Shown piece by piece: positions 4,913 through 23,422 of a stretch of 53,922 bases of DNA (the first letter of the stretch is position 1; every line of letters starts with the position of its first letter). The DNA comes from Gloeomargarita sp. SKYB120 (GTDB lineage: Bacteria; Cyanobacteriota; Cyanobacteriia; Gloeomargaritales; Gloeomargaritaceae): assembly GCA_025062155.1 (NCBI GenBank), contig JANXAM010000015.1, forward strand, positions 1-53,922, written 5' to 3'. Made by a program: the position numbers and the translations under genes. The notes below the pieces were generated by a model. That model searched no databases, had not been told where the DNA came from, and was given only the letters and a program-made list of their open reading frames with translations.

Positions 4913-6412
4913 CTATCCTAATCCGGCTCCAGCGCTGGCGGGGTCGGGTAGCTGGTTCAATACCGTTTGGAGTAGGGCCATGTCTTGGGGTTTGAGCCGG
5001 TAGCGGCCCGATTCAATATCCCGCAGCCAGCTTTGACTTTTGTTGAGTAGGGCGCAAAGTTGACGCTGACTGAGCCTCTTCTGGAGACGCGCCTGTTTCA
5101 CGAAGGTGCCGGTGAGACCCGCCGGAGTCGGCAAGTTCGGCTGGGTTGAACGCTCCTTGGGCGGCGCTTTTGCAGGCCAGTCGGCGGGGAATGCCGTCAC
5201 CTGCACAGCGGCGTTGACCAACTGCACCCACTTCTGCTTGGAGTTGGTTTTGGGTGCCGGCGCTTGGGTCATCCAATACTCCAACGCTTCTTCGGGGTCA
5301 TCGGGGACTTCTTGGGCACTAGCCCACCAGGGCCAAAGGGCGCGCGGGTAAAACGGCTCGGCAAGCAGGGGCCGGAAACCGTAGTCGAACAGAGGCGCCA
5401 AATCGGCTTCAAACCCAGCCATGAGCTGGCGACGCAGGTTGGCTTGGTGCCAGGCCGACTGGAGCAAGGTATCCCCATAGACCAGCTTGAGCAAAGTGGC
5501 CACCTTGGTCTGGGGTTCTCGCCGCAGCCGCAACTGAAACAGGAAGTACAGCAGCAGCACCACCGCCCCTGGATGCCGTTTCCACAGGTGCATGACCTGC
5601 GGCGCTAAGGAGCGGGGCAACCAACCGTACTGGTAATAGGCCGTTTTTTGGCGGGCCTGCTCGCGGTTGAGAAAGTAGGTGGCCCAGGGACCAGCAAACA
5701 CCTGAAACGACAGGCCGCTCAAGTACGTTGAGCCGTCTTTCGCAGTGGCGATGTGATAGGTCGGGGTGATGCGCCACAGGGGGGCAAACGGGAGATGAAC
5801 CGCCGGGATTTGCCCTCGCCGTTGCCAGGACACTTCCACTTCTAAGGCCGCTGCTTGCCGCATCCAGGCCTCGATGAGCAGGAGTTTTCGCAGGCGGTTC
5901 AGGTCCTTGCGCTGCGGCCATCCCAAAAACTCGGCAACCAGTCGGTCGTTGAGCACCAGGGCTTCCTCCCAGGGGCGGGACTTCTGGGTTGCGCAGGCGG
6001 CCAGCAACAGGTGCATCGTCACCACCCGCATGTCCCGCTGCTCCCAGTCGGCGCGGGGTAACCGGTAGCGCAACCGGCCCGAGGGTCCCTGGTACTCCCA
6101 AACCAGGAAACCGTTGTCCTCGCGCCATGCGTGGTAGGGTCGCTGGGTCATCAAATGACAGGCTTGCCAGATCACCAAACAGGAAGCAAAGGGCGTGTTG
6201 CGACCGTTCTGGTAGAGGGCTACATTCGGCGCAGGAACCGCTGTGGTCGCAGGGCGACCGTGGGGCAACGTTAGTAACTGACTCAAACACTGGTAACTCT
6301 GATTACAAACTACCGCCGTTTCAGTCAACGCACGGTCACAATGGACATTCAGGTTGAATTCACCGCAACTTGACACAGGACACGTATTCAACATGGATTC
6401 TGCCTGCGCCAT
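4913..6412 (-). CDS. cnfR: CnfR/PatB-like nif transcriptional activator with degenerate ferredoxin module
   Basis: A 499-residue protein. The C-terminus (about 430-488) is an XRE-type helix-turn-helix (RLSQRQLCALLNKSQSWLRD) of the kind ending PatB/CnfR, the master activator of nif genes in cyanobacteria under low oxygen. The segment LYQNGRNTPFASCLVIWQAC (67-86) and the following WEYQG...LRYRLP region also match that family as I remember it. CnfR normally begins with a bacterial-type ferredoxin holding two 4Fe-4S clusters; here no CxxCxxC is present, only Cys11, 16, 25, 36 and 42. Nothing upstream in other frames restores it. It sits 176 bp behind nifZ on the same strand. Start at 6412; an ATG at 6394 is the alternative. 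Identity is from remembered motifs, not a search. Confidence 0.72.
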   Translation of the reverse strand: MAQAESMLNTCPVSSCGEFNLNVHCDRALTETAVVCNQSYQCLSQLLTLPHGRPATTAVPAPNVALYQNGRNTPFASCLVIWQACHLMTQRPYHAWREDNGFLVWEYQGPSGRLRYRLPRADWEQRDMRVVTMHLLLAACATQKSRPWEEALVLNDRLVAEFLGWPQRKDLNRLRKLLLIEAWMRQAAALEVEVSWQRRGQIPAVHLPFAPLWRITPTYHIATAKDGSTYLSGLSFQVFAGPWATYFLNREQARQKTAYYQYGWLPRSLAPQVMHLWKRHPGAVVLLLYFLFQLRLRREPQTKVATLLKLVYGDTLLQSAWHQANLRRQLMAGFEADLAPLFDYGFRPLLAEPFYPRALWPWWASAQEVPDDPEEALEYWMTQAPAPKTNSKQKWVQLVNAAVQVTAFPADWPAKAPPKERSTQPNLPTPAGLTGTFVKQARLQKRLSQRQLCALLNKSQSWLRDIESGRYRLKPQDMALLQTVLNQLPDPASAGAGLG

Positions 6413-7990: not shown

Positions 7991-8089
7991 CTACCGAAAC
8001 AGGTGCTGGATGAACCACCAAATCGCCGCCGTGTAGAGACATAGAAAGCCAAGGAAACACACAAAATTCACAACCGTGATAGCCGTCAT
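7991..8089 (-). CDS. 32-aa single-span membrane peptide between the Asr1405-like gene and nifV
   Basis: A short frame reading [19 protein letters not shown] then [13 protein letters not shown] and a stop. It is one hydrophobic helix with a WW aromatic belt and a basic end, typical of a real small membrane protein. Its ATG overlaps the TGA of the preceding Asr1405-like gene (ATGA), and it ends 2 bp before the nifV ATG, so three genes are tightly coupled. In Anabaena PCC 7120 a short gene, asr1406, lies at the equivalent place between asr1405 and nifV; equivalence is my inference from position. Function unknown. Confidence 0.65.
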
Positions 8090-8346
8090 AGGATTTCGCC
8101 TCCACGCGCAGCGCAACTATGCCAACAGCGTTCCAACCACTCCACTTGTTGCCGGCGCGATGTCAGGAAACGAAATAGAACCATGGATACCAGTATCGCT
8201 TCCAGTGCATTTTTGATTTCAATCCGCAGGGAACCATCGTTTAGGCATTCACAGTGAATCCCAAAGTCCTGCAGCCGAGAGCGCACACTCCAGCGCTCCC
8301 CCACCGGTACTGTTTCAACATGGTCCATCAGAATAGCATCCCACAT
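8086..8346 (-). CDS. Asr1405/Asl0597 family protein
   Basis: An 86-residue protein found beside nifV in diazotrophic cyanobacteria. The family pattern is visible: a start near the HTH-like [17 protein letters not shown], a middle [12 protein letters not shown] and an end [13 protein letters not shown]. The frame is open to 8565, but the ATG at 8346 has GGAG 9 bp upstream and gives the usual family length; the extra N-terminal residues look like leader DNA read through. Function is unknown. It heads the leftward arm asr1405-like, 32-aa peptide, nifV, nifZ. Confidence 0.78.
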
Positions 8347-8924
8347 CGCTGAATACTCCGTTGGGGCTGTTGTCTCCGTTATATCAAATGCCCCGCTGCT
8401 GGACCCGACCGGCGCCCAGCTTATTCTTAGGCTGATTGCGGTGTACTCAACCAAACGCATCAACCGCTTCAGGCCGTTGCCAAGGGAGTTTGCCGCTAGG
8501 AAGGACAGAGCTAGACTTGGGATGAACCTGAATTTTACAGGCGCGATATTGGTATTTTTATTCATCTAAACTGGTATCCTTGCACTCAGAGGATTCCTCT
8601 GTTCCTACCCCTGATTATCTCCTCCCGTCGCCAGTCAAACATCGCATTTTAAGATTGATTTTAGTATTCCATTTAACAGTTTAGATTGTTCATGTTATAT
8701 TTGATACCAAACGGGGCTAGGGATAGACGTTAGGCGAGTGCATTTTAGGGTAACTTCTCTGGAGAAAATAGGGTTTTTGCCGGCTAGAAATTCCCGTTTG
8801 CCAGTTCAACAAAAAGCCTTTTGTCCCGCCAGTCGGGAGTTTCAGGTCTGAGTACATCTTTAATTAGCTGAATAGAGAATTTTGGCGGGGCCATCTGGGG
8901 CCAAAAAAGGGCGGTGTTATAACG
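8347..8924. promoter_or_regulatory. Divergent regulatory region between the nifV and nifB arms
   Basis: A 578-bp stretch without a convincing gene, AT-richer than its surroundings around 8640-8720. It must carry the promoters of both nif arms and is the natural place for CnfR binding. I found no exact NtcA box (GTA-N8-TAC); the closest is GTATTCCATTTAAC near 8665, with one mismatch. A hairpin lies just before nifB. Confidence 0.6.
8880..8906 (+). promoter_or_regulatory. Hairpin in the nifB leader
   Basis: TTTTGGC and GCCAAAA form a 7-bp stem around a 13-nt GC-rich loop, ending 18 bp before the first nifB ATG. It may stabilise the 5' end of the long nif transcript or be part of an operator. 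Confidence 0.35.
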
Positions 8925-10379
8925 ATGGCATCCAATGGCGAGGCCCCAACCATGGCATCCGAAACCGTAAAAAGTTGTAGCTGTACCCAGCAAGGGCTGG
9001 CCGATGCCTTAGCCCAACGCGATGCCCGTTTACAGGCGCGCATTGCGAAACACCCTTGCTACAGCGAAGAGGCGCATCACCACTACGCCCGCATGCACGT
9101 GGCCGTCGCGCCCGCCTGCAACATCCAGTGCAATTACTGCAACCGCAAGTACGACTGCGCTAACGAAAGCCGCCCTGGGGTGGTCAGCGAAGTCCTGACG
9201 CCGGAGGAGGCCCTGCGCAAAGTGCTGGTGATTGCCGGCAAAATTCCCCAGTTGACGGTGGTGGGCATTGCCGGGCCGGGGGACCCGCTGGCCAATCCCA
9301 AGCAGACCTTTCGCACGTTTGAATTGCTGGCGGAACACGTGCCCGATATCAAGCTGTGTCTTTCGACCAACGGCTTGAATTTGCCGGACTATGTAGACCG
9401 GATTAAAGCCCTGAACATTGACCACGTCACGATTACCATCAACGCCATTGACCCCGACATTGCCGTGCGGATTTACCCCTGGATTCGCTGGCAACGCAAA
9501 CGCATTTACGGCAAAGAAGCGGTCAAGATTTTGCTGGAGCGGCAAATGGAAGGACTGCAGGCGCTTCAGGAGGCCGATATTCTCTGCAAAGTGAATTCGG
9601 TCATGATTCCGGGAATTAACGACGAGCACCTGCTGGAGGTCAACCGAGTCATCCGGGAAAAGGGCGCTTTTATCCACAACATCATGCCCCTGATTTCGGC
9701 GCCAGAACACGGCACGTACTTCGGCCTGACGGGTCAGCGGGGACCCACGCCCCAAGAGCTGAAGGCGCTGCAGGATAAATGCGCCGCTGGGATGAGGGTC
9801 ATGCGCCATTGTCGCCAGTGCCGGGCGGATGCCATTGGGCTATTGGGCGAAGACCGTTCCCAGGAATTCACCAAGCAGAAGTTCATGACCATGCCGGTTG
9901 AGTACGACCCAGAAAAACGCCGTTTGCACCAAACCCGCATTGAACTAGAACGCCAAGTCATGGCCCAGAAGAAAGCGCAACTGCGCCCGCAGACCACCCA
10001 ACCCACACCGGCCATCCTGGTGGCGGTCGCCAGTAAAGGCGGTGGCTTGGTGAATCAACATTTCGGCCATGCCAAGGAATTCATGGTTTACGAGGTGGAC
10101 GGGCAAGGGGCGCGGTTTGTCGGTCATCGCAAGGTGGCCCAGTACTGCCAAGGCGGCTACGGGGAAGAAGCCACCATGACCCACATCTTGCAGGCCATCG
10201 GCGATTGTCAAGCTGTCTTGTGCGCCAAAATCGGCCCCTGTCCCCAAGAAAAACTACGCCAAGCGGGCATCGAACCGGTGGAGGACTACGACCTGATTGA
10301 GGTGGTGGCCCGCAAGTTCTATGACCGCTGGCTGGCTCAGCACAAGGAGGTGGGTTATGCCCTACAAAACGCCGAATGA
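8925..10379 (+). CDS. nifB: FeMo-cofactor biosynthesis radical-SAM protein NifB
   Basis: A 484-residue enzyme that fuses two 4Fe-4S clusters and inserts carbon to make the 8Fe NifB-co precursor of FeMo-co. The SAM cluster motif CNIQCNYC has Cys65, 69 and 72, followed by [11 protein letters not shown]; further signatures are [13 protein letters not shown] and [18 protein letters not shown]. Residues from about 365 on form a NifX-like cofactor-binding domain ([17 protein letters not shown]). Two starts carry the same ATGGCATCC: 8925 and 8952. The second has GCGAGG 8 bp upstream and may be the true one. First gene of the rightward nif operon; overlaps the fdxN-like gene by 23 bp. Confidence 0.96.
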
Positions 10380-10635
10380 ATATATGAGCTGGACGGAATG
10401 CCAGGCCCGCTGTCCCAAAGGGGCGATTAAAAAAGCTAACCACCACTACTGGTGGGACCAGCGCCTGTGCGACCGCTGCCAGGGCCAAGGGGAATACCGC
10501 TGCGGCGGCATTTTTGAAAACAATTGCCCCTACCAGCTCGAAGACATCAACAGCTACTGGCGCCAGTGGTTTAGCGAATACCAGCAACGGCTGGCCCAGT
10601 TGCGGGAACGTCAACTCGTCGGAGGTCGCCGATGA
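10357..10635 (+). CDS. fdxN: FdxN-like nif ferredoxin with six rather than eight cysteines
   Basis: A 92-residue protein at the fdxN position between nifB and nifS. The CPKGAI motif, [11 protein letters not shown] and the C-terminal [16 protein letters not shown] match cyanobacterial FdxN. A normal FdxN has two CxxCxxCxxxC-type motifs for two 4Fe-4S clusters. Here the first motif keeps only Cys15 and Cys19, with Tyr9 and Trp12 where cysteines are expected. The second keeps Cys38, Cys41, Cys49 and Cys57, but with 7 residues between the last two instead of 3. At most one standard cluster looks possible. AAGGAGG precedes the ATG; the stop overlaps the nifS start (ATGA). Confidence 0.75.
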
Positions 10636-11837
10636 ATGTCATCTACCTGGATAACAACGCCACAACGGCGGTTGCCCCAGAAGTCCTAGAGGCCATGCTG
10701 CCCTACCTGACCACCTACTACGGCAACCCGTCCAGCATGCACAGCTTTGGCGGCCAGGTGGCCAAGGCGCTCAAAACGGCGCGGGAGCAGGTGGCGGACC
10801 TGATTGGGGCGACGCCGACCGAAGTGATTTTCACCAGCGGCGGCACCGAGGGCAATAACACAGCCATCCGCTCGGCCCTAGCCAGCTTTCCCGACCGGCG
10901 GCACATTATCACGACTCAGGTTGAACACGCCTGCGTGCTGAACCTGTGCAAGCGCTTGGAGAAGGAGGGCTATCGTGTCACCTACCTGTCGGTGGACCGG
11001 CGGGGGCAATTGGACCTGCTGGAGCTGGAGGCGGCCCTGACTGGGGACACGGCGCTGGTGTCGGTGATGTACGCCAACAACGAAACCGGGGTGCTGTTTC
11101 CCATTGACGCCATTGGCGACCTGGTGAAGTCCTACGGGGCGTTGTTCCACGTGGATGCGGTGCAAGCGGTGGGCAAAGTCCCTATCCATCTACAGAACAG
11201 CCCGATTGATTTCCTGACGCTGTCGGGGCACAAGTTCCACGCGCCCAAGGGGGTTGGTGCCCTGTTTGTGCGCCGGGGGGTTCCCTTTCGGCCCTGGCTC
11301 ATCGGCGGTCACCAGGAACGCAACCGGCGCGGCGGCACGGAAAACGTGGCGGGCATCGTGGGGCTGGGTCAGGCGGCGGTTTTAGCCAAGCACCACCTGA
11401 CGGCAATGACCACGCAGGTGCAGGCGCTGCGGAACCGGTTGGAGCAAGCCATCCTGGCGACTATCCCTGACGTAGTGGTCAACGGCCAGGGGAGTCCCCG
11501 TTTACCCAACACCAGCAACATCGGGTTCAAGTACATCGAAGGGGAAGCCATCCTGCTGCTGCTGGACCGGGAAGGCATTTGCGCGTCGTCGGGGTCGGCT
11601 TGCACGTCGGATTCCCTGGAGCCGTCCCACGTGTTGAAGGCGATGGGCGTGCCCTACAGCGTCCTGCACGGCTCGATTCGCTTTAGCCTGTCGCGCTATA
11701 CCACAGCGGCGGAGGTGGAACGGTTGCTGGCGGTGCTGCCGGGGATTGTGGCCCAACTGCGGTCTCTATCGCCCTTTACGGATGACGAGAGCGACTGGCT
11801 GGAACAACGCACCCACGCGCTGCTGGCGGCGGGTTAG
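10632..11837 (+). CDS. nifS: Cysteine desulfurase NifS
   Basis: A 401-residue PLP enzyme that strips sulfur from cysteine for nitrogenase Fe-S clusters. The PLP lysine is Lys201 in LSGHKFHAPKG, the pocket His is in TQVEHACV, and the persulfide cysteine is Cys324 in ASSGSACTSDSLEPSHVL. The N-terminus IYLDNNATTAVAPEV is standard. It overlaps the fdxN-like stop by 4 bp and is followed 10 bp later by nifU, so the sulfur donor and its scaffold are made together. Confidence 0.97.
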   Translation: MNVIYLDNNATTAVAPEVLEAMLPYLTTYYGNPSSMHSFGGQVAKALKTAREQVADLIGATPTEVIFTSGGTEGNNTAIRSALASFPDRRHIITTQVEHACVLNLCKRLEKEGYRVTYLSVDRRGQLDLLELEAALTGDTALVSVMYANNETGVLFPIDAIGDLVKSYGALFHVDAVQAVGKVPIHLQNSPIDFLTLSGHKFHAPKGVGALFVRRGVPFRPWLIGGHQERNRRGGTENVAGIVGLGQAAVLAKHHLTAMTTQVQALRNRLEQAILATIPDVVVNGQGSPRLPNTSNIGFKYIEGEAILLLLDREGICASSGSACTSDSLEPSHVLKAMGVPYSVLHGSIRFSLSRYTTAAEVERLLAVLPGIVAQLRSLSPFTDDESDWLEQRTHALLAAG

Positions 11838-11847
11838 GAGGTTGGTT

Positions 11848-12678
11848 ATGTGGGACTACAGCGACAAGGTTTTGGAGCACTTCTATCACCCCCGTAACCA
11901 GGGAGTGATCGAGGACACGGGCGACCCAGCCTTTGCCGTGGTCACCGGTGAAGTCGGGAGCCTGGCCTGCGGCGACGCCCTGCGCCTGCACCTAAAAATC
12001 GAACGGGCCAGCGAGCGGATTGTGGAGGCCAGGTTCCAAACCTTCGGTTGCACCAGCGCCATCGCGTCGTCGTCGGCGCTGACGGAAATGGTCAAGGGAC
12101 GCACCCTGGAGGAGGCCCTGGCCATTACCAATCAGGACATTGCCGATTACCTGGGCGGGTTGCCCCCGCAGAAAATGCACTGCTCCGTGATGGGCCAGGA
12201 AGCCCTGGAGCAGGCCATTTACAAGTACCGGGGCGTGGCGGTGCCGGTGCAGCACAAGAACGACAGTCCCCTGGTGTGTACCTGCTTTGGGGTGAGCGAG
12301 GAACGCATTCGTAAGGTGATCCGGGACAATCGCCTGACCACCGTGGAAGCGGTCACCCATTACATCAAAGCAGGAGGTGGCTGCGGGATGTGCCGCGACG
12401 CCATTGCCGACCTTTTAGCCCAGACCGTCATGCCCCCGCGCTTGACCACGGTGCAAAAAATCAACCGCATCCAGGCCGTCCTGAGCACACTGCGCCCCTA
12501 TTTCCAGCAAGACGGTGGCGATGTGGAGTTGGTTGAAGTCGAGGGCGACCAGGTCTGGGTGCAACTGACCGGTGCTTGCGGCGATTGCAGCAGCCGTTGG
12601 ACCACCTTGAAGGAGGTCATCGAAGCGCGGTTGCGCCAGGAGGTGTGGCCGACGCTGGTGGTGGAAGCCGTGTCGTAA
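11848..12678 (+). CDS. nifU: Fe-S scaffold protein NifU
   Basis: A 276-residue three-domain scaffold on which NifS-derived sulfur and iron are assembled. Domain 1 is IscU-like with Cys41, Cys68 and Cys112. Domain 2 is the 2Fe-2S domain with CTCFGVS (Cys144, 146) and GGGCGMC (Cys179, 182). Domain 3 is the Nfu domain with CGDC near the end. The frame is open from 11746, but the ATG at 11848 follows TTAGGAGG and gives the family start MWDYSDKVLEHFYHPRN. All cluster ligands of the full-length type are present. Confidence 0.97.
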   Translation: MWDYSDKVLEHFYHPRNQGVIEDTGDPAFAVVTGEVGSLACGDALRLHLKIERASERIVEARFQTFGCTSAIASSSALTEMVKGRTLEEALAITNQDIADYLGGLPPQKMHCSVMGQEALEQAIYKYRGVAVPVQHKNDSPLVCTCFGVSEERIRKVIRDNRLTTVEAVTHYIKAGGGCGMCRDAIADLLAQTVMPPRLTTVQKINRIQAVLSTLRPYFQQDGGDVELVEVEGDQVWVQLTGACGDCSSRWTTLKEVIEARLRQEVWPTLVVEAVS

Positions 12679-12722
12679 CGCAGGAGATGGTCATGTGCCG
12701 AGGTGGCGTGCCGGGTGAACGG

Positions 12723-12761
12723 TCGCCCCCATCGCAACCACCGTTGACCCGGGGGGAGCGA
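12723..12761 (+). promoter_or_regulatory. Structured hairpin between nifU and nifH
   Basis: TCGCCCCC pairs with GGGG(A)GCGA (one bulge), and a smaller CAAC-CACC-GTTG hairpin sits in the loop. It lies 46 bp upstream of the nifH ATG with no U-run. It may be an RNA processing or stabilising element at the 5' end of nifHDK mRNA. Confidence 0.45.
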
Positions 12762-12765
12762 TTAA

Positions 12766-13689
<924 letters not shown>

Positions 13690-13696
13690 CTCCCCC

Positions 13697-13736
13697 GGCA
13701 TCCGGCCCTTTCCAGCACTGGCGGGGGTTGGATGCC
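13697..13736 (+). promoter_or_regulatory. Hairpin between nifH and nifD
   Basis: GGCATCC (13697-13703) pairs perfectly with GGATGCC (13730-13736); the loop holds further GC-rich pairing. There is no U-run, so it is not an intrinsic terminator. Such hairpins after nifH in other diazotrophs protect nifH mRNA and raise NifH over NifDK. Confidence 0.5.
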
Positions 13737-13770
13737 CAGCCCACATCCATCCATCGTGGAGGACCCAACC

Positions 13771-15234
13771 ATGACCAGCGTTTATCAAGAGCGAAAACAA
13801 GTCATTCAGGACGTGCTGGCGGCCTACCCGGAAAAGACCCGCAAAAAACGCCAAAAGCACTTGAACGTTCTCGAGGAGGGCAAATCCGACTGCGGGGTCA
13901 AGTCCAATATCAAATCCATTCCCGGCGTCATGACCACGCGCGGCTGCGCCTATGCCGGTTCCAAAGGGGTGGTCTGGGGACCGGTGAAGGACGTCATCCA
14001 CATCAGCCACGGCCCAGTAGGCTGCGGGTACTACTCCTGGTCCGGTCGCCGCAACTACTACGTGGGCACCACTGGGGTAGACACCTTCGTCACCATGCAG
14101 TTCACCACCGACTTCCAGGAACGGGACATCGTGTTTGGGGGGGACAAGAAACTGGCCAAAGCCCTGGACGAGCTGGCCACCCTGTTCCCCTTGGCCAAGG
14201 GCATCACCATCGAGTCCGAATGCCCGATTGGCTTGATTGGGGATGACATTGAAGCCGTGGCGCGGCACAAGACCAAAGACCTGGGCAAGCTGGTGGTGCC
14301 GGTGCGGTGCGAAGGTTTCCGGGGCGTTTCCCAGTCTCTCGGCCACCACATCGCCAACGACACCATCCGCGACTGGGTCTTTCCCGCCTACGACAAACTC
14401 AGCAACGACGAGCTGGGTTACACGCCGTCGCCCTACGACATCGCCATCATCGGCGACTACAACATCGGGGGCGATGCCTGGGCGTCGCGCATCCTGCTGG
14501 AGGAAATCGGCCTGCGGGTGGTGTGCCAGTTCTCCGGCGACTGCACGCTCCAGGAGATGAAGTTAGCGCCCCGGGTCAAGCTGAACCTGATCCACTGCTA
14601 CCGCTCCATGAATTACCTGTGCCGGCACATGGAGGAGAAGTACGGCATCCCCTGGGTGGAGTACAACTTCTTTGGGCCGACGGAAATTGCCAACTCCCTG
14701 CGCAAGATTGCGTCCTACTTCGACGCCACCATCCAGGAGAAGGCGGAAGCAGTCATTGCCAAGTACCAACCCCAGGCCGATGCAGTGATTGCCAAGTACC
14801 GCCCGCGGCTGGAGGGCAAGCGGGTGATGATCATGGTGGGGGGCCTGCGCCCGCGTCACGTGATCCCCGCCTTCCGGGATTTGGGGATGGAGGTCATCGG
14901 CACTGGCTATGAATTTGGCCACAGCGACGACTACCAGCGCACCACCCACTACGCCGACCCTGGCACGGTCATCTACGACGACGTCACGGCCTATGAATTT
15001 GAGGAATTCGCCCGCCGGTTGCATCCCGATCTGATTGCGTCGGGCATCAAGGAGAAATACGTCTTCCAGAAGATGGCCCTGCCATTTCGCCAGATGCACT
15101 CGTGGGACTACTCCGGCCCCTACCACGGCTACGATGGCTTTGCCGTTTTCGCCCGCGATATGGACCTGGCCCTGAACAGTCCCACCTGGGGGTTGGTCAA
15201 AGCGCCCTGGAAAACCCACACCGACACCGTTTGA
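13771..15234 (+). CDS. nifD: Nitrogenase MoFe protein alpha chain NifD
   Basis: A 487-residue alpha subunit of dinitrogenase. P-cluster ligands are Cys59 (GCAYAG), Cys85 ([10 protein letters not shown]) and Cys151 (SECPIG). FeMo-co is held by Cys276 ([10 protein letters not shown]) and His443 ([10 protein letters not shown]), and the substrate-site histidine is in SLGHHIAND (192/193). All key residues of a molybdenum nitrogenase are present. The frame opens at 13732, but the ATG at 13771 has GTGGAGGA upstream and the family N-terminus. nifD is continuous: no excision element interrupts it, unlike in some heterocystous species. Confidence 0.98.
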
Positions 15235-15246
15235 GGGAGGACTGCC

Positions 15247-16776
15247 ATGTCTCAAAACGTCAACGCCATTCAGGACCACGTCCAGCTTTTTCACCAGCCG
15301 GAGTACCAGGAACTCTTTGAGCGCAAGCGCCAGTTTGAGGCCTGCCCCAGCCCTGAAGAAGTGCAGCGGGTAGCCGAGTGGACCAAAACCTGGGACTACC
15401 GGGAGAAAAACTTCGCCCGCGAGGCCATCACCATCAACCCCGCCAAAGCCTGCCAGCCGCTAGGGGCCATCTTTGCCGCTGCCGGGTTTGAGCAAACGCT
15501 GCCCTTTGTGCATGGGTCCCAGGGGTGTGTGGCCTACTTCCGCACCCACCTGACCCGCAACTACAAGGAACCCTTTGCCGCCGTGTCCACTTCCATGACG
15601 GAAGATGCAGCGGTGTTTGGGGGACTCCAGAACATGATTGAGGGGCTGATGAACGCCTATGCGCTCTACAAACCCAAGATGATCGCCGTCTGCACCACCT
15701 GCATGGCGGAGGTAATTGGGGACGACCTGGGGGCTTTCATCACCACCGCTAAAAACGAGGGGGCGCTTCCGGCTGACGTGCCCGTGCCCTACGCCCATAC
15801 GCCCAGCTTTGTCGGCTCCCACATTGACGGCTACGACAACATGCTCAAGGCCATCCTGCAGACCCTGGAGGGCAAGAAAGGGGACAGCACGGGCAAATTG
15901 AACTTCATTCCTGGCTTTGACCCCTACATCGCCAATATCCGGGAGCTGCGGCGGATGCTCACCCTGATGGACATCCCCCACACCATCCTGGCGGACAATT
16001 CCGACACCTTCGATTCACCCAACACCGGCCACTACGTGCTGTACCACGGGCGGACCACGCTGCAGGAGACCGCCCAGGCGATCAACGCGGAGGCCACCGT
16101 CGCGTTACAGGCCTACTCCACGGAAAAGACGCGGGATTTCATCCAGACGGTCTGGCAACAGCCCACCTGTGTGCTGCGCCCGTTTGGGATTCAGGGGACG
16201 GATGCCTTTTTGATGAAGCTTTCCAAGCTCACCGGCAAACCCATTCCCCCCGAGTTAGAGGTCGAGCGGGGCCGAGCGGTGGATGCGATGACGGACTCCC
16301 AGGCCTGGTTGCACGGCAAACGCTTTGCCATCTACGGCGACCCCGACCTGGTGTTGTCCCTGTTGGCGTTCACCCTGGAGATGGGGATGGAACCCGTACA
16401 CATCGTGGTGACCAACAGCAACGAAGCCTTTGAGCAGGAAGCCAAGGAGCTGTTGGCCCGCTATCCCAACGGTGGGGAAGCAACGGTCTGGGGTGGCAAG
16501 GACCTGTGGCACCTGCGCTCGCTGCTGTTTACCGAACCCGTGGACCTGCTGATTGGCAACTCCTACGGCAAATACCTGTGGCGGGATACGAAAACGCCCC
16601 TGGTGCGCATTGGTTACCCCATTTTCGACCGGCATCACCTGCACCGCTATCCCACCTTGGGCTACCAAGGGGCGATTAACCTGCTCAACTGGCTGGTGAA
16701 TACGGTGCTGGACGAACTCGACCGGCAAACCATTCTTCCCGCCAAGACCGACTTCTCCTTTGACCTGATCCGCTGA
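15247..16776 (+). CDS. nifK: Nitrogenase MoFe protein beta chain NifK
   Basis: A 509-residue beta subunit that shares the P-cluster with NifD. Ligand regions are AKACQPLGA, HGSQGCVAYFRTHL and VCTTCMAEVIGDD. It carries the N-terminal extension (HVQLFHQPEYQELFERKRQFE) typical of molybdenum-type NifK that wraps the alpha subunit. GGAGG precedes the ATG 12 bp after nifD. Full length and intact. Confidence 0.97.
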   Translation: MSQNVNAIQDHVQLFHQPEYQELFERKRQFEACPSPEEVQRVAEWTKTWDYREKNFAREAITINPAKACQPLGAIFAAAGFEQTLPFVHGSQGCVAYFRTHLTRNYKEPFAAVSTSMTEDAAVFGGLQNMIEGLMNAYALYKPKMIAVCTTCMAEVIGDDLGAFITTAKNEGALPADVPVPYAHTPSFVGSHIDGYDNMLKAILQTLEGKKGDSTGKLNFIPGFDPYIANIRELRRMLTLMDIPHTILADNSDTFDSPNTGHYVLYHGRTTLQETAQAINAEATVALQAYSTEKTRDFIQTVWQQPTCVLRPFGIQGTDAFLMKLSKLTGKPIPPELEVERGRAVDAMTDSQAWLHGKRFAIYGDPDLVLSLLAFTLEMGMEPVHIVVTNSNEAFEQEAKELLARYPNGGEATVWGGKDLWHLRSLLFTEPVDLLIGNSYGKYLWRDTKTPLVRIGYPIFDRHHLHRYPTLGYQGAINLLNWLVNTVLDELDRQTILPAKTDFSFDLIR

Positions 16777-16783
16777 AGACCCC

Positions 16784-18178
16784 ATGTTTCGGACCCAGAT
16801 CAACCAGCTTTTGACGGAACCGGCTTGCCCCCACAACCACCACCAGCACGGGGACCAGAAAAACCGGAGCTGTCGGCAACAGGCCAAACCGGGGGCGGCC
16901 CAGGGTGGATGCGCCTTTGACGGGGCCAGTATTACCCTGGTGCCGATTACCGACGCCGCCCACCTGGTGCATGGCCCCATCGCCTGTGCCGGCAATTCCT
17001 GGGGTACGCGCGGGAGTGGGTCGTCCGGCCCCCTGCTGTTTCGGACGGGTTTCACCACCGACCTGACCGAGCAGGACATTATTTTTGGGGGCGAAAAGCG
17101 GCTCTACCGGGCCATCCAGGAGATTGCTGAGCGCTACCGGCCCGCCGCCATCTTTGTCTATTGCACCTGCGTGCCGGCCCTGACGGGGGAAGATGTGGTG
17201 GCGGTGTGCCAGGCGGCCCGGGAAAAGGTGGGGTTGCCGGTGATTCCCGTCATGGCGCCGGGGTTTGTGGGGGGGAAAAACCTGGGCAATCGTCTGGCTG
17301 GGGAAGCCCTGCTGGAGTACGTCATCGGCACGGGGGAACCGCCAGCGGTGGGCCGCTTCGCCATCAATCTCATCGGCGAGTACAACATTGCCGGGGAACT
17401 GTGGGACGTCTTGCCCCTGTTTGAGCGGTTGGGGATTCAGGTGCTGGCGAAAATCACCGGCGATGCCCGCTACCGGGAAATCACCTACGCCCACCGCGCC
17501 CACTTGAACCTGGTGATCTGCGCCAAGGCCCTGCTGAACGTGGCGCGCAAGATGCAGGAGCGCTACGGCATTCCCTACATCGAGGGCTCGTTTTACGGCC
17601 TGGGAGAGATGAACCGCTGCCTGCGGCAAGTGGCCCAGCATTTCCAGGACCCCGACCTGAGCGCACGGGTGGAGGCCCTGATTGCCGAGGAAACCCAGCG
17701 TCTGGAGCAGGACCTTGCCCCCTACCGCGCCAAGCTCCAAGGCAAGCGGGTGGTACTCTACACCGGCGGCGTCAAAAGCTGGTCGGTGATTGCGGCGGCC
17801 CAGGATTTGGGTATGCGCGTGGTTGCTAGCAGCACTCGCAAAAGCACGGCTGAGGACAAAGCCCGCATCCAGCAACTGTTGGGGGACGAGGGCGTGCTCA
17901 TCGAAGGCGGCGGCACCCAGGAACTGCTGGAGGTGATTCGTCGCACCCGCGCTGACCTGTTGATTGCCGGCGGTCGCAACCAATACACCGCACTCAAAGC
18001 TGGGATTCCCTTTCTGGACATCAACCAGGAACGGCACCACGGTTACGCCGGCTACCGGGGCCTGGTGACCCTGGCGCGGGAGTTGACCCATGCCCTGTAC
18101 AGCCCCGTGTGGACCCACTTGCGGCAACCGGCTCCCTGGGAGGAGGACCTGCGTTATGGCTCGGATACAAGTACCTGA
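16784..18178 (+). CDS. nifE: FeMo-co assembly scaffold NifE
   Basis: A 464-residue NifD paralogue which, with NifN, forms the scaffold where NifB-co receives molybdenum and homocitrate. Recognisable parts are the N-terminal CRQQAKPGAAQGGCAFDGA, the VHGPIACAGNSWGTRG loop, FVYCTCVPALTGED and YIEGSFYGLGEMN. It begins 8 bp after nifK and its end overlaps the start of nifN by 23 bp, so NifE and NifN are probably made in equal amounts. Confidence 0.96.
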   Translation: MFRTQINQLLTEPACPHNHHQHGDQKNRSCRQQAKPGAAQGGCAFDGASITLVPITDAAHLVHGPIACAGNSWGTRGSGSSGPLLFRTGFTTDLTEQDIIFGGEKRLYRAIQEIAERYRPAAIFVYCTCVPALTGEDVVAVCQAAREKVGLPVIPVMAPGFVGGKNLGNRLAGEALLEYVIGTGEPPAVGRFAINLIGEYNIAGELWDVLPLFERLGIQVLAKITGDARYREITYAHRAHLNLVICAKALLNVARKMQERYGIPYIEGSFYGLGEMNRCLRQVAQHFQDPDLSARVEALIAEETQRLEQDLAPYRAKLQGKRVVLYTGGVKSWSVIAAAQDLGMRVVASSTRKSTAEDKARIQQLLGDEGVLIEGGGTQELLEVIRRTRADLLIAGGRNQYTALKAGIPFLDINQERHHGYAGYRGLVTLARELTHALYSPVWTHLRQPAPWEEDLRYGSDTST

Positions 18179-19433
18179 ACGCGCCGTTGCGATCAATCCC
18201 TTGAAACTCAGCCCGCCGCTGGGGGCTGCCCTGGCTTTCCTGGGCATCAAAGGCGCACTGCCCCTGCTGCACGGTTCCCAAGGGTGTACCGCCTTTGCCA
18301 AGGTGATGCTGGTGCGCCATTTCCGGGAGGCGATTCCGCTGGCCACGACGGCGCTCACCGAAGTCAGCACCATCCTGGGGGGCGAGGACAACATCCGCCA
18401 GAGCCTGGAAACCCTGCTCGCCAAAGCCCAACCCCAACTCATTGGCCTATGCTCGACCGCTCTTGCCGAAACCCGTGGGGAAGACATTGCCGGCATTTTG
18501 CGGCAACTGCACTTGCCCATTCCCGTTATTTACGCCTGCGCGCCGGACTTTGGCGGTTCCCTGAGCGACGGGTACAGCCAAGCGGTGGAGGCCATCATCC
18601 GGGAACTCCCCCAACCGGGGCCGCTGCTGGCCGACCAGGTGACAGTGCTGGCGGGTCCCGACCTGACCCCAGGGGAGGTCGCCGACGTGAAGGCCCTGAT
18701 CCAAGCCTTTGGTTTAACCCCCATCGTCATCCCCGACCTTTCCACATCCTTGGATGGACACTGGGCCAATGGCTACCACAGCGTCACCACCGGGGGCACG
18801 TCCCTGGCGGAACTGCGCGCAGCCGGACGCTCTGCTCACGTGCTGGTGATTGGCCAATCCCTGCGCCGGGCTGCCGAGCAATGGCGCGAGCGCTTCCAGG
18901 TGCCCTATACCTTGGTGCCGGGGGTGACTGGGCTGGCCGCCAGCGATGACCTGCTGCGCTGCCTGATGGCCTGGAGTGGCCAGAGCGTGCCTGCCCTGTA
19001 CCGCCAGCAGCGACGACAACTGCTGGATGCCATGCTCGATACCCACTTTTACCTGGGCGGCAAACGGGTAGCTCTGGCTTTGGAACCCAACCAGCTTTTT
19101 GTCATGAGTCACTTTTTGGCGAGCATGGGGATGGAAATCCAGGCGGCGGTCTCCCCCACGCGGGCCGACTGGTTAGCGGACCTGCCCTGCGAAACGGTCA
19201 TTGTTGGCGACCTGAGCGACTTGCAACAGCACGCCCCTGGCGCCGATGTACTCATCAGCAATTGCCGTGCAGCGCCGATTGCTCAGGCGTTGGGCCTGCC
19301 CCTGTTGCGCATGGGCCTGCCGATTTGGGACCGGTTGGGCTATCACCTGCGTTCCTACGTGGGTTACCGGGGCACCGCCCAGTTGCTATTTGACTTGAGC
19401 AATTTGCTCTTGGAAACTCCCCATCACCCCTAG
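18156..19433 (+). CDS. nifN: FeMo-co assembly scaffold NifN
   Basis: A 425-residue NifK paralogue and partner of NifE. Family features: AVAINPLKLSPPLGAALAFLGI, LLHGSQGCTAFAKVMLVRHFRE, GLCSTALAETRGEDI and the C-terminal LRMGLPIWDRLGYHLRSYVGYRGT. The open frame extends to 18090, but the ATG at 18156 has GGAGGA upstream and gives the correct start inside the nifE end. nifE and nifN are separate genes here, not fused as in some cyanobacteria. Confidence 0.96.
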   Translation: MARIQVPERAVAINPLKLSPPLGAALAFLGIKGALPLLHGSQGCTAFAKVMLVRHFREAIPLATTALTEVSTILGGEDNIRQSLETLLAKAQPQLIGLCSTALAETRGEDIAGILRQLHLPIPVIYACAPDFGGSLSDGYSQAVEAIIRELPQPGPLLADQVTVLAGPDLTPGEVADVKALIQAFGLTPIVIPDLSTSLDGHWANGYHSVTTGGTSLAELRAAGRSAHVLVIGQSLRRAAEQWRERFQVPYTLVPGVTGLAASDDLLRCLMAWSGQSVPALYRQQRRQLLDAMLDTHFYLGGKRVALALEPNQLFVMSHFLASMGMEIQAAVSPTRADWLADLPCETVIVGDLSDLQQHAPGADVLISNCRAAPIAQALGLPLLRMGLPIWDRLGYHLRSYVGYRGTAQLLFDLSNLLLETPHHP

Positions 19434-19452
19434 ACCTTATGGAGGTGTTGTC

Positions 19453-19848
19453 ATGAAAGTTGCCTTTGCCACCACCGACGGGGAACACATCAACGCCCAC
19501 TTTGGCTGGGCCAGGCTCCTGTCGGTGTACGAAGTCACGCCCGAGGGCTATCGCCTGGTGGAGCACCACCCTTTTCCTACCGGCACCGAAGACGGCAACG
19601 AGGACAAGCTCGTGCCGAAGCTGGAATTTCTCAAAACCCACCCTGACTGCAAGATTGTGTACGTCGCCGCGATTGGGGGGAGTGCTGCCGCCCGCCTGGT
19701 CAACCAGGGGGTGATGCCAGTGAAATCCCGCTCAGAAGCCGACCCCATCTCGGCCACCCTGGACCACCTGGTGCGCACCCTGCAGGGCAACCCACCCCCC
19801 TGGTTACGTAAAGCCCTCGGCACCAAACCCGCTTTTACGGAGGACTAG
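19453..19848 (+). CDS. nifX: NifX, FeMo-co/NifB-co carrier
   Basis: A 131-residue small cofactor-binding protein of the NifX/NafY type, thought to shuttle NifB-co and VK-cluster between NifB and NifEN. Typical motifs: VAFATTDGEHINAHFGWARLLSVYEV and VYVAAIGGSAAARLVNQGVMPVK. GGAGGTG precedes the ATG 19 bp after nifN. The same fold recurs as the C-terminal domain of NifB in this window. Confidence 0.94.
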   Translation: MKVAFATTDGEHINAHFGWARLLSVYEVTPEGYRLVEHHPFPTGTEDGNEDKLVPKLEFLKTHPDCKIVYVAAIGGSAAARLVNQGVMPVKSRSEADPISATLDHLVRTLQGNPPPWLRKALGTKPAFTED

Positions 19849-19852
19849 ACCC

Positions 19853-20308
19853 ATGAGCACCACCACCAGCCCCATCGTGGCATCTCCTTTTTTACAAACT
19901 CTTGTGGCCCAATACCGCGCCCAGGACCCCTACGGCATTTACGCTTCCTGGAGCGACGAGCGTTTCCTGCAACCCTACGTGCTCACCAAAGAACAGAAGC
20001 GCCAGATTTCCCTAGACCAGCCGGTGGACCCCGCCACCCGCGAGCGCATCACCCGCTTTTACAGCGCCATTGCCCGTCTCATTGAGCAGCAGCGGGGTAA
20101 GCTCACGCAGGTGGTGATTTCCCTCCACGACGAGGGCTTTGGCTGGGCCTTGATTTTCAGCGGGCGACTGTTGCTGGTGGCCCGTCCTCTGCGGGATGCC
20201 CAGCGCTTTGGGTTTGCGTCCCTGGAGCAGATGGCCCAGGCGGGTGAAAAGGACGTGCAAAATGCCCTGGCGCTCATTGACCGCTTTCCTGCTGTTACGG
20301 AGGTGTAG
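19853..20308 (+). CDS. NifX-associated nitrogen fixation protein (DUF269)
   Basis: A 151-residue protein of the DUF269 family, nearly always next to nifX. Visible signatures are [25 protein letters not shown] and the block [20 protein letters not shown]...[25 protein letters not shown]. It is a proposed nif accessory factor of unknown mechanism. It starts 4 bp after nifX and ends 2 bp before nifW, so it is in the operon. Confidence 0.92.
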
Positions 20309-20310
20309 CC

Positions 20311-20634
20311 ATGACCGGCACTTGGGAGCAATTCCAACGGCTGACTGACGCCGAAGATTACTTCCACTTCTTTGGGCTGCCCTATGACCCGCGGGTGGTC
20401 AACGTCTACCGCCTGCACATCCTGCGCAAGTTTGGCCTGCTCAAAGAGGCCATTGACCAGCAAACGACCGACCTGCAGGAGCGGCTCACGCATTACCGCA
20501 CGGCGCTGGAGACCGCCTACCAGACCTTTCTTACTTCTTCAGCCCAGGAGCAAAAGCTGTTCAAGGTATTCCAGCAACCCGCTCCCCACGTGGTGCTGCT
20601 ATCCGACCTCGTCGAGGCGCCCACCCATGGTTGA
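20311..20634 (+). CDS. nifW: Nitrogenase-stabilising protein NifW
   Basis: A 107-residue NifW, which associates with the MoFe protein and protects or matures it. The pattern [31 protein letters not shown] and the C-terminal QEQKLFKVF are family marks. GGAGGTGTAGCC precedes the ATG. Its last 8 bp overlap the hesA start in another frame. Confidence 0.93.
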
Positions 20635-21379
20635 ACTGTCTGCCCAAGAACGCGAGCGGTATCGCCGGCAAATGCAACTTCCTCACTTTGGGGAAACGGG
20701 GCAGTTAGCCCTCAAGCGCACCCGTGTCCTGGTCACCGGCGTGGGGGGGTTGGGTGGTACGGTAGCGCTGTATTTGGCCGCCGCCGGCATTGGCCAGCTC
20801 ATCCTGGTGCGGGGCGGGGACCTACGCTGGGACGACCTGAACCGCCAAGTGCTCATGACCGAGGACTGGATAGGCCGGCCTCGCGTCTGGAAAGCCAAAG
20901 ACACCCTGCACGCCTTCAACCCAGGGGTGGCGATTGAGGCCGTCCCCGACTCTCTCACTGACGCCAACCGGCGGGAACTGGTGGCCCGTTGCGACCTGGC
21001 GGTGGATTGTGCCCACAACTTCGAGGAGCGGGCCTTGCTCAATCGCACCTGCGTCGAACAGGGCAAACCGATGGTGGAGGCGGCAATGGACGAGATGACC
21101 GCCTACCTGACCACCCTCGTGCCAGGACAAACCCCTTGTTTGCAGTGCCTGTTTCCCGAATTTCCCCCTTGGGATAAATACGGGTTTGGCGTGCTGGGGG
21201 CCGTGGCCGGAACCCTGGCGTGCCTGGCTGCCCTAGAGGTCATCAAATACGTGACCGGTTGCGCGCCGGCGTTGTGCGGAGAATTGCTGGTCATGCATCT
21301 GAACATCCTCACCTTTCGCAAATACCGTCTGTACCGCGAGCCGGCCTGTCCGGTTTGCAGCTCACTGTTTCAGCGTTAG
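20627..21379 (+). CDS. hesA: HesA, ThiF/MoeB-type adenylyltransferase
   Basis: A 250-residue E1-like enzyme of the ThiF/MoeB superfamily found in cyanobacterial nif clusters; suggested to act in molybdenum-cofactor or sulfur chemistry for nitrogenase. It has the ATP-binding [21 protein letters not shown], the aspartate region [17 protein letters not shown] and two zinc CxxC pairs, CLQC and CPVC. The long open frame starts at 20372, but that part runs in the wrong frame through nifW; ATG 20627 gives the family N-terminus [18 protein letters not shown]. Confidence 0.94.
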
Positions 21380-21389
21380 GAGACCTGCC

Positions 21390-21713
21390 ATGGACATTAC
21401 ACCCCAAGCCCAAGACCGGCTCCGGTCATTGCTCAGCGCCCATCCCGGGTGCGTCTATCGCCTGCGGGTCGTGCCAGGAGGGTGCCAGGGCTATACCTAC
21501 GACCTCAAGCTCGTGCGTCAGCCGGAGCCTGACGACCTAGTGCCACCCTTTCCCGACCTGCCGCTCTACATCGAGCGCCGCAGCGCGCCCTACCTAGAGG
21601 AGGTCGTCCTAGACTACGTGGACGGGCTGTTCAACCGCGGCTTTATCTTCCAACATCCTTACCGCTGTCACTGCGGTCAGTCCTTTGCCCCCTCGTCCTG
21701 TCCCAGCCGCTAG
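21390..21713 (+). CDS. hesB: HesB/IscA-type Fe-S carrier
   Basis: A 107-residue A-type carrier that delivers Fe-S clusters. The three family cysteines are visible: one in VPGGCQGYTYDL and two in the C-terminal CHCGQSF. The start TPQAQDRLRSLL is standard. It follows hesA by 10 bp with a good GGAG. Its TAG stop shares the palindromic CTAG with the stop of the opposing Mop gene, so the two genes meet tail to tail with a 4-bp overlap. Confidence 0.93.
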   Translation: MDITPQAQDRLRSLLSAHPGCVYRLRVVPGGCQGYTYDLKLVRQPEPDDLVPPFPDLPLYIERRSAPYLEEVVLDYVDGLFNRGFIFQHPYRCHCGQSFAPSSCPSR

Positions 21714-21943
21714 TCAACCGCCACCAGCACGTCCGACGCCTTGATCACGGCGTAGGCTTCCTTCCCCAACGTCAGCCCTAGCTTCTCACAGGACGCTCTC
21801 GTGATGAGTGCTGTGACCTCAATCCCAGGCGCAATCTCCAGGGTGACCTCGGCAATCACCATCCCCGTGACAATATTTTTGACCTTGCCCTTCAGGACAT
21901 TCCGCGCACTGATTTGCACCTCGTTATCCCGCGTTACGACCAT
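21710..21943 (-). CDS. Small molybdenum-binding (Mop/TOBE) protein, antisense inside the nif operon
   Basis: A 77-residue protein made of one Mop domain ([38 protein letters not shown]...[12 protein letters not shown]). Mop domains bind molybdate and occur as stand-alone stores ('molbindins') or at the end of ModC. It lies on the strand opposite to hesB and fdxB, in the middle of the nif operon. The open frame reaches 21967, but that ATG overlaps the fdxB ATG on the other strand; ATG 21943 is more plausible, though no good ribosome site is seen. Confidence 0.85.
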
Positions 21944-21965
21944 CCATTCTAGAGGAGAATGCATC

Positions 21966-22262
21966 ATGACTTACTTAACCGGTTTAACCCAAGGCGGCCA
22001 CGTCTGGACCCCCTACTTTGTCCAGGCCATTGACATGACCCGCTGCTTGGGGTGTGGCCGTTGTCTCAAAGTTTGTGGCCGCAACGTCTTGCATCTCCAG
22101 GCGGTCAACGAAGACTTCGAGTTTGTGGATGAGGACGAAGAGGAAAGCGAACGCAAGGTGATGACCATTGCCCATCCCGAATGGTGCATTGGTTGTCAAG
22201 CCTGCGCTCGCATTTGTCCTAAAAACTGCTACACCCACGCCCCCCAATTGGTGACTACATAA
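21966..22262 (+). CDS. fdxB: Nif-specific ferredoxin (2[4Fe-4S], FdxB type)
   Basis: A 98-residue ferredoxin with two complete motifs, [11 protein letters not shown] near residues 25-35 and [15 protein letters not shown] near 75-90, separated by an acidic insert (DEDEEESER). This is the 'ferredoxin III, nif-specific' form and a candidate electron carrier to NifH or donor to NifB. Unlike the FdxN-like protein after nifB, all eight cysteines are here. GAGGAG lies about 10 bp before the ATG at 21966. A strong hairpin follows its stop. Confidence 0.92.
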
Positions 22263-22310
22263 CCTTCGTCGTCAGGGATAACTCCCTCGAAGGACCCATG
22301 AGACTTTTTT
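22263..22310 (+). terminator. Terminator-like hairpin after fdxB
   Basis: Nested stems CCTTCG/CGAAGG (22263-22268 with 22288-22293) and AGGGA-TAAC-TCCCT (22274-22287) start directly after the fdxB stop. A T6 run follows at 22305-22310, 11 nt beyond the stem, which is further than ideal. It probably ends the nif operon or protects its 3' end. Confidence 0.65.
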
Positions 22311-22606
22311 CAGGCTAAGATACACCTGCTGAAGCCCAACATATTACGGCGTGTCATCCCTTGGGTGGTAGGACAAAGCCCTGTCTTTATTTCTGTTTTT
22401 GACAACACTGGATCAGCTGTCTAGGTTATGAGAAAAGGAATGAAAATTTGTCCCACAACTTGCATATAACTACCGCTCAATAGTTGGCTAAACAAGTCCA
22501 AAATTTGTACAATAGACTACAGAATTTTTTCCGGTCTCTTTGCACCATATTTTATGGAGAATATCATTGCGATGGCGGCTAGAATTATTTGAAAAACTGT
22601 TAATGT
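22311..22606 (+). promoter_or_regulatory. modA upstream region
   Basis: About 300 bp of AT-rich sequence with no gene. It contains a perfect NtcA box and a TAN3T-type -10 hexamer, described separately, and separates the nif operon from the molybdate transporter genes. Confidence 0.6.
22507..22520 (+). promoter_or_regulatory. Candidate NtcA box upstream of modA
   Basis: GTACAATAGACTAC is an exact GTA-N8-TAC match to the binding site of NtcA, the global nitrogen regulator of cyanobacteria. TATTTT at 22548-22553 fits a TAN3T -10 box; the 27-bp spacing is slightly longer than the usual 20-24. modA starts 87 bp downstream of the box. Confidence 0.6.
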
Positions 22607-23422
22607 ATGGCTAGGAAATGGTGCCGTTTGCTTCTATTTATATTGGCATTTTTGATGGGGATTGGCGGGGCGGTTATCGTCCACCAAGGCAAGCCGGTTG
22701 CAGTGACCACAGGGAAACAACCCATCACCCTTGTGGTTTCAGCAGCAGCAGACTTGAAATATGTCTTTCCAGAGATCGGCCAGCAGTGGGAGCAGGAAAC
22801 AGGAAACAAGGTAACGTTTAACTTTGGTTCGACGGGGCAATTAGCCCATCAGATTGAACGGGGAGTGCCGGTGGATTTGTTTGCTGCGGCCAATCGTAAA
22901 TTTATCGAAGATCTGGATAAAAAAGGGCTGATTTATTCCGACAGTAAGGCGCTCTACGGCGTGGGGCGAATTACCCTGTGGCAACGACCTGATAGCCGCC
23001 AGGAATTGCGAACGTTAAACGACCTGATGCGACCAGGTGTCAAACGCGTGGCAATTGCGAACCCTGACCATGCGCCTTACGGAGTAGCTGCCAGGGAAGC
23101 CCTGCAAAGTGTGGGAATTTGGAGCGCCATTCAACCCAAGCTAGTGTTCGGTGAAAATGTGCGGCAGACCCAGCAGTATGCAGAAACAGGCAATGTAGAT
23201 GCAGCAATTGTGGCGCTATCCATCAGTGTTAATAGACCAGGGAAATGGACGTTGATCCCCGACCATTTGCACAGGCCCCTTGAGCAGATGCTGGCCATTC
23301 CCAAAAGTGCGCGCCATCCGGAACTGGCCAAGCAGTTTGCGGCATTTATCAATGGACAAAAGGGAAGAGCGTTAATGCGCAAGTACGGGTTTGTGTTACC
23401 AGGGGAGAAACTCATCTCATGA
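22607..23422 (+). CDS. modA: Molybdate ABC transporter, binding protein ModA
   Basis: A 271-residue periplasmic molybdate-binding protein. It begins with a signal/anchor helix (about 6-27: LLLFILAFLMGIGGAVIV), then ITLVVSAAADLKYVFPEIG, the family opening with the serine ligand, FNFGSTGQLAHQIERGVPVDLFAAAN and a C-terminal GFVLPGEKL. It captures molybdate for ModBC and so feeds FeMo-co synthesis. Base composition is lower in GC than the nif genes. Its stop overlaps the modB ATG (ATGA). Confidence 0.95.
   Translation: MARKWCRLLLFILAFLMGIGGAVIVHQGKPVAVTTGKQPITLVVSAAADLKYVFPEIGQQWEQETGNKVTFNFGSTGQLAHQIERGVPVDLFAAANRKFIEDLDKKGLIYSDSKALYGVGRITLWQRPDSRQELRTLNDLMRPGVKRVAIANPDHAPYGVAAREALQSVGIWSAIQPKLVFGENVRQTQQYAETGNVDAAIVALSISVNRPGKWTLIPDHLHRPLEQMLAIPKSARHPELAKQFAAFINGQKGRALMRKYGFVLPGEKLIS

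Follow-up and report, generated by a model that had tools for sequence, protein, structure and literature searches.

Gloeomargarita is an early-branching cyanobacterial genus which, among living organisms, has been proposed to stand nearest to the ancestor of plastids. It is this genus, and not Thermostichus, to which the locus belongs, so that the Thermostichus comparison named in the earlier note is not applicable. A regulatory gene in the nif region of Gloeomargarita sp. SKYB120 raises the question of how the CnfR activator can be arranged when its N-terminal ferredoxin module is missing. In literature, this 2[4Fe-4S] module is treated as universal in CnfR and as the likely route of oxygen control of cyanobacterial nitrogen fixation, the published view being that every CnfR carries two 4Fe-4S sites (PMC8510180). 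Gloeomargarita as a genus has the activator, undamaged in six of seven genomes, without the module, and provides a natural experiment on whether the module is oxygen-sensing or only structural. Moreover, an activator needing fewer clusters would be of interest for moving nif genes into plastids. All coordinates refer to the window, i.e., the whole stretch of 53,922 nucleotides that was analysed (contig JANXAM010000015.1).

Identity of the cnfR gene

The gene and its neighbors on the nif side are the following.

4913..6412, minus strand: cnfR ortholog, 499 aa, stop at 4913 and ATG at 6412, without the N-terminal 2[4Fe-4S] ferredoxin module
4949..5137, minus strand: C-terminal HTH of XRE type (residues 426-488), its recognition helix KSQSWxRDIE being of CnfR type (Pfam match and helix alignment)
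6266..6412, minus strand: remodelled N-terminal segment, residues 1-49, with C11-P12, C16, C25, C36 and C42
6849..8105, minus strand: nifV, homocitrate synthase (TIGR02660 over cut-off), next to cnfR and separated from it by a short NifZ-like ORF
8442..8857: four GAGTRCA boxes, candidate CnfR operators, at 8442 (minus), 8581 (minus), 8736 (plus) and 8850 (plus), upstream of nifB
8925..10379, plus strand: nifB (TIGR01290 over cut-off)

Judged by its core, its helix and its gene context, the 499-aa protein is a CnfR/PatB ortholog. The core is about 40% identical to that of ferredoxin-bearing CnfRs outside the genus (maximum 41%), and the recognition helix KSQSWxRD is the same in the Gloeomargarita protein and in CnfR, while the plasmid paralogs do not have it. 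A tree, built in two analyses, placed the protein within CnfR. Together with the adjacency to nifV and nifB, these results confirm the identity that the earlier note had read from the letters, and a search for a second full CnfR in the source genome (2.48 Mb, 96% complete) gave a single copy. The sole Pfam matches of the protein are HTH_31/HTH_3 at residues 435-486; an NCBIfam search gave no matching CnfR model, and a PDB sequence search returned weak HTH-like matches and nothing else. Within the order, cnfR and nifB co-occur in the same six of eight genomes. The other two (G241 and G390) have neither gene, and the NifH/ChlL family model finds one full-length match in each of them, scoring under the NifH level. 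The best explanation is that Gloeomargarita CnfR acts as the nif master activator, with a requirement for nif expression as its predicted role.

Like the CnfR/PatB proteins of Leptolyngbya boryana and Anabaena/Nostoc, the Gloeomargarita protein has the core, the XRE HTH with KSQSWxRD, the link to nif, GAGTRCA upstream of nifB and C85, a residue that all 50 aligned ferredoxin-bearing CnfRs have. Unlike them, it lacks both [4Fe-4S] motifs, carries C11/C36/C42 and has gained C78 and C140 in the core, two residues found in every CnfR of the genus and hardly anywhere else.

Loss of the ferredoxin module

The N-terminal cysteines of the source protein are exactly C11, C16, C25, C36 and C42, and CxxC is absent. 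Pfam finds no Fer4 match in this protein, whereas two typical CnfR N-termini do match Fer4 models. When CxxCxxCxxxC was searched in all frames of both strands around the 5′ end of cnfR, none was found, which excludes a start-site or frameshift artefact; in the whole window the motif occurs only twice, both times in one distant ORF, fdxB. The motifs are also absent from CnfR in all seven nif-bearing Gloeomargarita genomes, and this common pattern rules out sequencing error or chance. For the source protein, the list of cysteines and the lack of CxxC are as first described from the sequence of this locus; the loss of both ferredoxin motifs is borne out by Pfam and by seven genomes as well. On the evidence of these sequences, Gloeomargarita CnfR does not carry the two [4Fe-4S] sites stated for all CnfR (PMC8510180). 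The anatomy of a CnfR without ferredoxin module in this genus is solid, and such a form is undescribed in the literature searched.

Cysteines retained in the N-terminal segment

The segment that takes the place of the ferredoxin diverges fast, with a mean pairwise identity among the seven congeners of 34% in the N-terminal 49 residues vs 66% in the core. Apart from the start Met, all seven nevertheless agree at five positions, i.e., C11, P12, C36, C42 and L43. Cysteine makes up 8.2% of the segment vs 1.1% of the remaining protein. With dN/dS at 0.21-0.27 (core: 0.10), the segment is under purifying selection, and it is not a product of random decay. C16 is not conserved among the congeners. 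C25 is common to the source genome and G387 only; these two do not have the extra cysteine (C8) that the five other genomes carry three residues ahead of C11. Because C8 and C25 swap between sub-lineages, four conserved cysteines are kept per genome, in the layout C-x2-C-P...C-x5-C or C-P...C25...C-x5-C.

In a profile comparison of this N-terminus with the ferredoxin, no similarity was detectable, as 30 of 100 column shuffles scored as high; the remaining cysteines are therefore not assignable to the old ligand positions. Their spacing matches none of the metal-binding families with which it was compared, and an AlphaFold model from five sequences, with a mean pLDDT of 52, is too poor to show the cysteines converging.

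FdxN and FdxB

Two further ferredoxin genes lie in the window.

10357..10635, plus strand: fdxN, homologous to the module that CnfR has lost, with three of the four cluster-I ligands replaced (Y, W, F) and the cluster-II ligands kept
21801..22262, plus strand: fdxB, nif-specific ferredoxin III (NCBIfam model over cut-off), in which neither CxxCxxCxxxC motif is disrupted

In every nif-bearing congener, FdxN, a free ferredoxin encoded beside nifB, is the one clear match to the ferredoxin of CnfR. The homology follows from the fact that FdxN, used as query, also matches the N-terminus of other CnfRs. In all seven Gloeomargarita genomes, Y, W and F stand at three cluster-I cysteine positions and all four cluster-II ligands are present, while all eight ligands occur in 21 of the 22 readable FdxN sequences of other cyanobacteria. 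Two clusters are assumed for cyanobacterial FdxN (PMC6616624); the Gloeomargarita protein, as far as its sequence tells, has a single complete ligand set. The losses in CnfR and FdxN, with FdxB intact, mean that both bacterial-type ferredoxin modules of the nif system have been reduced together.

Candidate operators upstream of nifB

GAGTRCA is also present upstream of nifB in genomes with a ferredoxin-bearing CnfR. In five other diazotrophs for which the full 850-bp region is available, it occurs 1-5 times, compared to 0.2 expected by shuffling; it is absent in a sixth, where the region is only 260 bp. The longer form TGAGTRCA is found 78 times in the 2.48-Mb source genome, three of them within a 415-bp stretch upstream of nifB. 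The boxes are putative CnfR sites. A small ORF (window 8086-8565, minus strand) lies between nifV and nifB, in a region that aligns in most congeners.

Proposed function of the remodelled activator

In diazotrophic Gloeomargarita, the N-terminal 2[4Fe-4S] ferredoxin would have shrunk to some 50 residues, with four cysteines kept per genome. These most likely hold one metal centre, which would be a single Fe-S cluster or, less likely, Zn, and which would still gate activation by redox state or oxygen. CnfR would bind the GAGTRCA boxes upstream of nifB via the recognition helix that it has in common with other CnfRs. We give roughly an even chance to this reading, i.e., a working activator with its ferredoxin reduced to one remodelled four-cysteine metal site that still gates activation. 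The different cluster geometry suggested by the earlier note is still the best inference, each genome having kept four conserved cysteines; against a metal site it counts that seven sequences are few. As C78 and C140 are invariant in the genus, the site, if real, may include both, or these extra cysteines may be incidental. A similar ligand economy is seen in the oxygen-responsive regulators ChlR and FNR, which hold a cluster on few cysteines (Cys-x4-6-Cys-Pro in ChlR; PMC4500134), but their folds are unrelated and the resemblance is in spacing only. It is possible, though doubtful, that the genus has a novel type of nif activator, in which a two-cluster sensor was rebuilt as a one-site four-cysteine sensor whose fourth ligand moved in evolution, in step with the one-cluster FdxN, and that at least one or two further lineages of cyanobacteria underwent similar reductions.

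Alternatively, sensing may simply have been lost, leaving a constitutively competent CnfR. The timing of cnfR expression (nitrogen status, day-night cycle) would then confine nif to anoxic periods, and the N-terminal cysteines would be structural or incidental. This would agree with the lack of detectable ferredoxin similarity in the N-terminus. Nor is an intact ferredoxin proof of oxygen control: in Anabaena variabilis, CnfR1 activates with or without oxygen in spite of its intact ferredoxin, and CnfR2 does not act regardless of oxygen (PMC8510180). Caution is therefore needed with the statement, made at the outset for known CnfR, that the ferredoxin module senses oxygen, which is unproven. 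Still, such a loss is unlikely, since a fast-diverging segment has kept five invariant positions, three of them cysteines, and four conserved cysteines per genome. In L. boryana, deletion of the cluster-binding region of CnfR abolishes nifB expression (PMC8510180), so that plain loss should be costly unless compensated.

Sensing could also rely on a separate ferredoxin, as the earlier note had considered. The idea survives, but the FdxN-like protein that it named has itself lost cluster I in the genus. In its specific form, sensing would have moved to FdxN, which would bind CnfR and supply the cluster. FdxN is the one clear homolog of the CnfR ferredoxin in these genomes and has changed in step with CnfR, yet fdxN is located downstream of nifB, the expression of which needs CnfR in the strains studied, making an FdxN-dependent start-up circular. 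Moreover, the role attributed to FdxN is in NifB-co synthesis (PMC6911178; PMC6616624), and neither a fusion nor interaction evidence links it to CnfR, so that we hold this transfer to be very unlikely. That cnfR is decaying and non-functional is extremely improbable. In VI4D9 (G388), an insertion sequence interrupts cnfR and nifH is broken in two, and the nif cluster of this genome looks decaying for that reason; however, the gene is intact in the other six genomes, dN/dS in its core is near 0.10, and the HTH and the operator boxes are conserved.

Distribution of reduced forms and direction of change

In 386 genomes of the phylum, surveyed together with the order-mates, 73 sequences with the CnfR helix were found. 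Both ferredoxin motifs are present in 66 of them, a hand-corrected count in which L013, L023, L024 and L071 carry both motifs. The seven exceptions are five Gloeomargarita proteins, one from G116 and one N-terminal truncation. Two further congeners stand outside the 73, i.e., G388 with its split copy and SM2_2_1, which was found separately. Of the CnfR orthologs inspected that have both the helix and a full-length N-terminus, just one outside the genus does not have the two cysteine motifs. In G116 (L063), the ferredoxin is half-eroded (CC-x6-CP...CxxxCP), the KRGRYK linker is kept, and the genome has a divergent nifB. Genus g2 (four genomes; L112, L113) has a CnfR-like protein without ferredoxin and without HTH beside a divergent nif cluster, and this protein has clustered cysteines at its N-terminus (CxxCPxxC...C). 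The cysteine clusters of G116 and g2, retained although the ferredoxin is missing, count in favour of the metal-site reading.

The best tree places the genus beside the ferredoxin-bearing L003, L007, L011 and L075 (support 87/91 in one tree and 92/94 in the other). As Gloeomargarita is thereby nested among ferredoxin-bearing CnfRs, the loss of the ferredoxin reads as derived, which is favoured, not proven. In the opposite scenario, the ferredoxin-less form is ancestral and the other lineages gained their ferredoxin by fusion with FdxN. A tree that unites all ferredoxin-bearing CnfRs in a single clade is not rejected by an AU test (p 0.158), and the outgroup plasmid paralogs lack the module as well. 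These CnfR-like XRE proteins of Gloeocapsa sp. PCC 7428 and Leptolyngbya sp. NIES-3755 have the same core and HTH, but differ by an identity of only 28-29%, another recognition helix, a basic N-terminus and a location beside plasmid partition genes. Besides the best tree, both the lost ligands in the FdxN of the genus and the linker still present in the half-eroded module of G116 argue against ancestral absence, which makes it quite unlikely.

Other observations on nif regions

In L112 and L113, nifB is 47-48% identical and split, and two PII-like nifI genes are apparently present (NifI judged by eye). In G129 (L064), a CnfR-like fragment covers only query residues 240-490; its N-terminal half was not found nearby, and nifB is ordinary. 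The insertion that interrupts cnfR in VI4D9 (L049) is roughly 1.1 kb long and has a transposase-like ORF of 355 aa; the 9 bp GAATGCGGC are duplicated on either side of it.

Window 8981-23296, which holds the nif tract beginning at the 5′ end of nifB, is 98.65% identical to SKYG116 (G386, L046) over 14.3 kb. In cnfR, nifV and the nifB promoter region, the two genomes reach a similarity of only about 72% or cannot be aligned. The nif structural genes have apparently been exchanged between species, with the regulator and the promoter left in place, assembly chimerism being the other possible source of this pattern.
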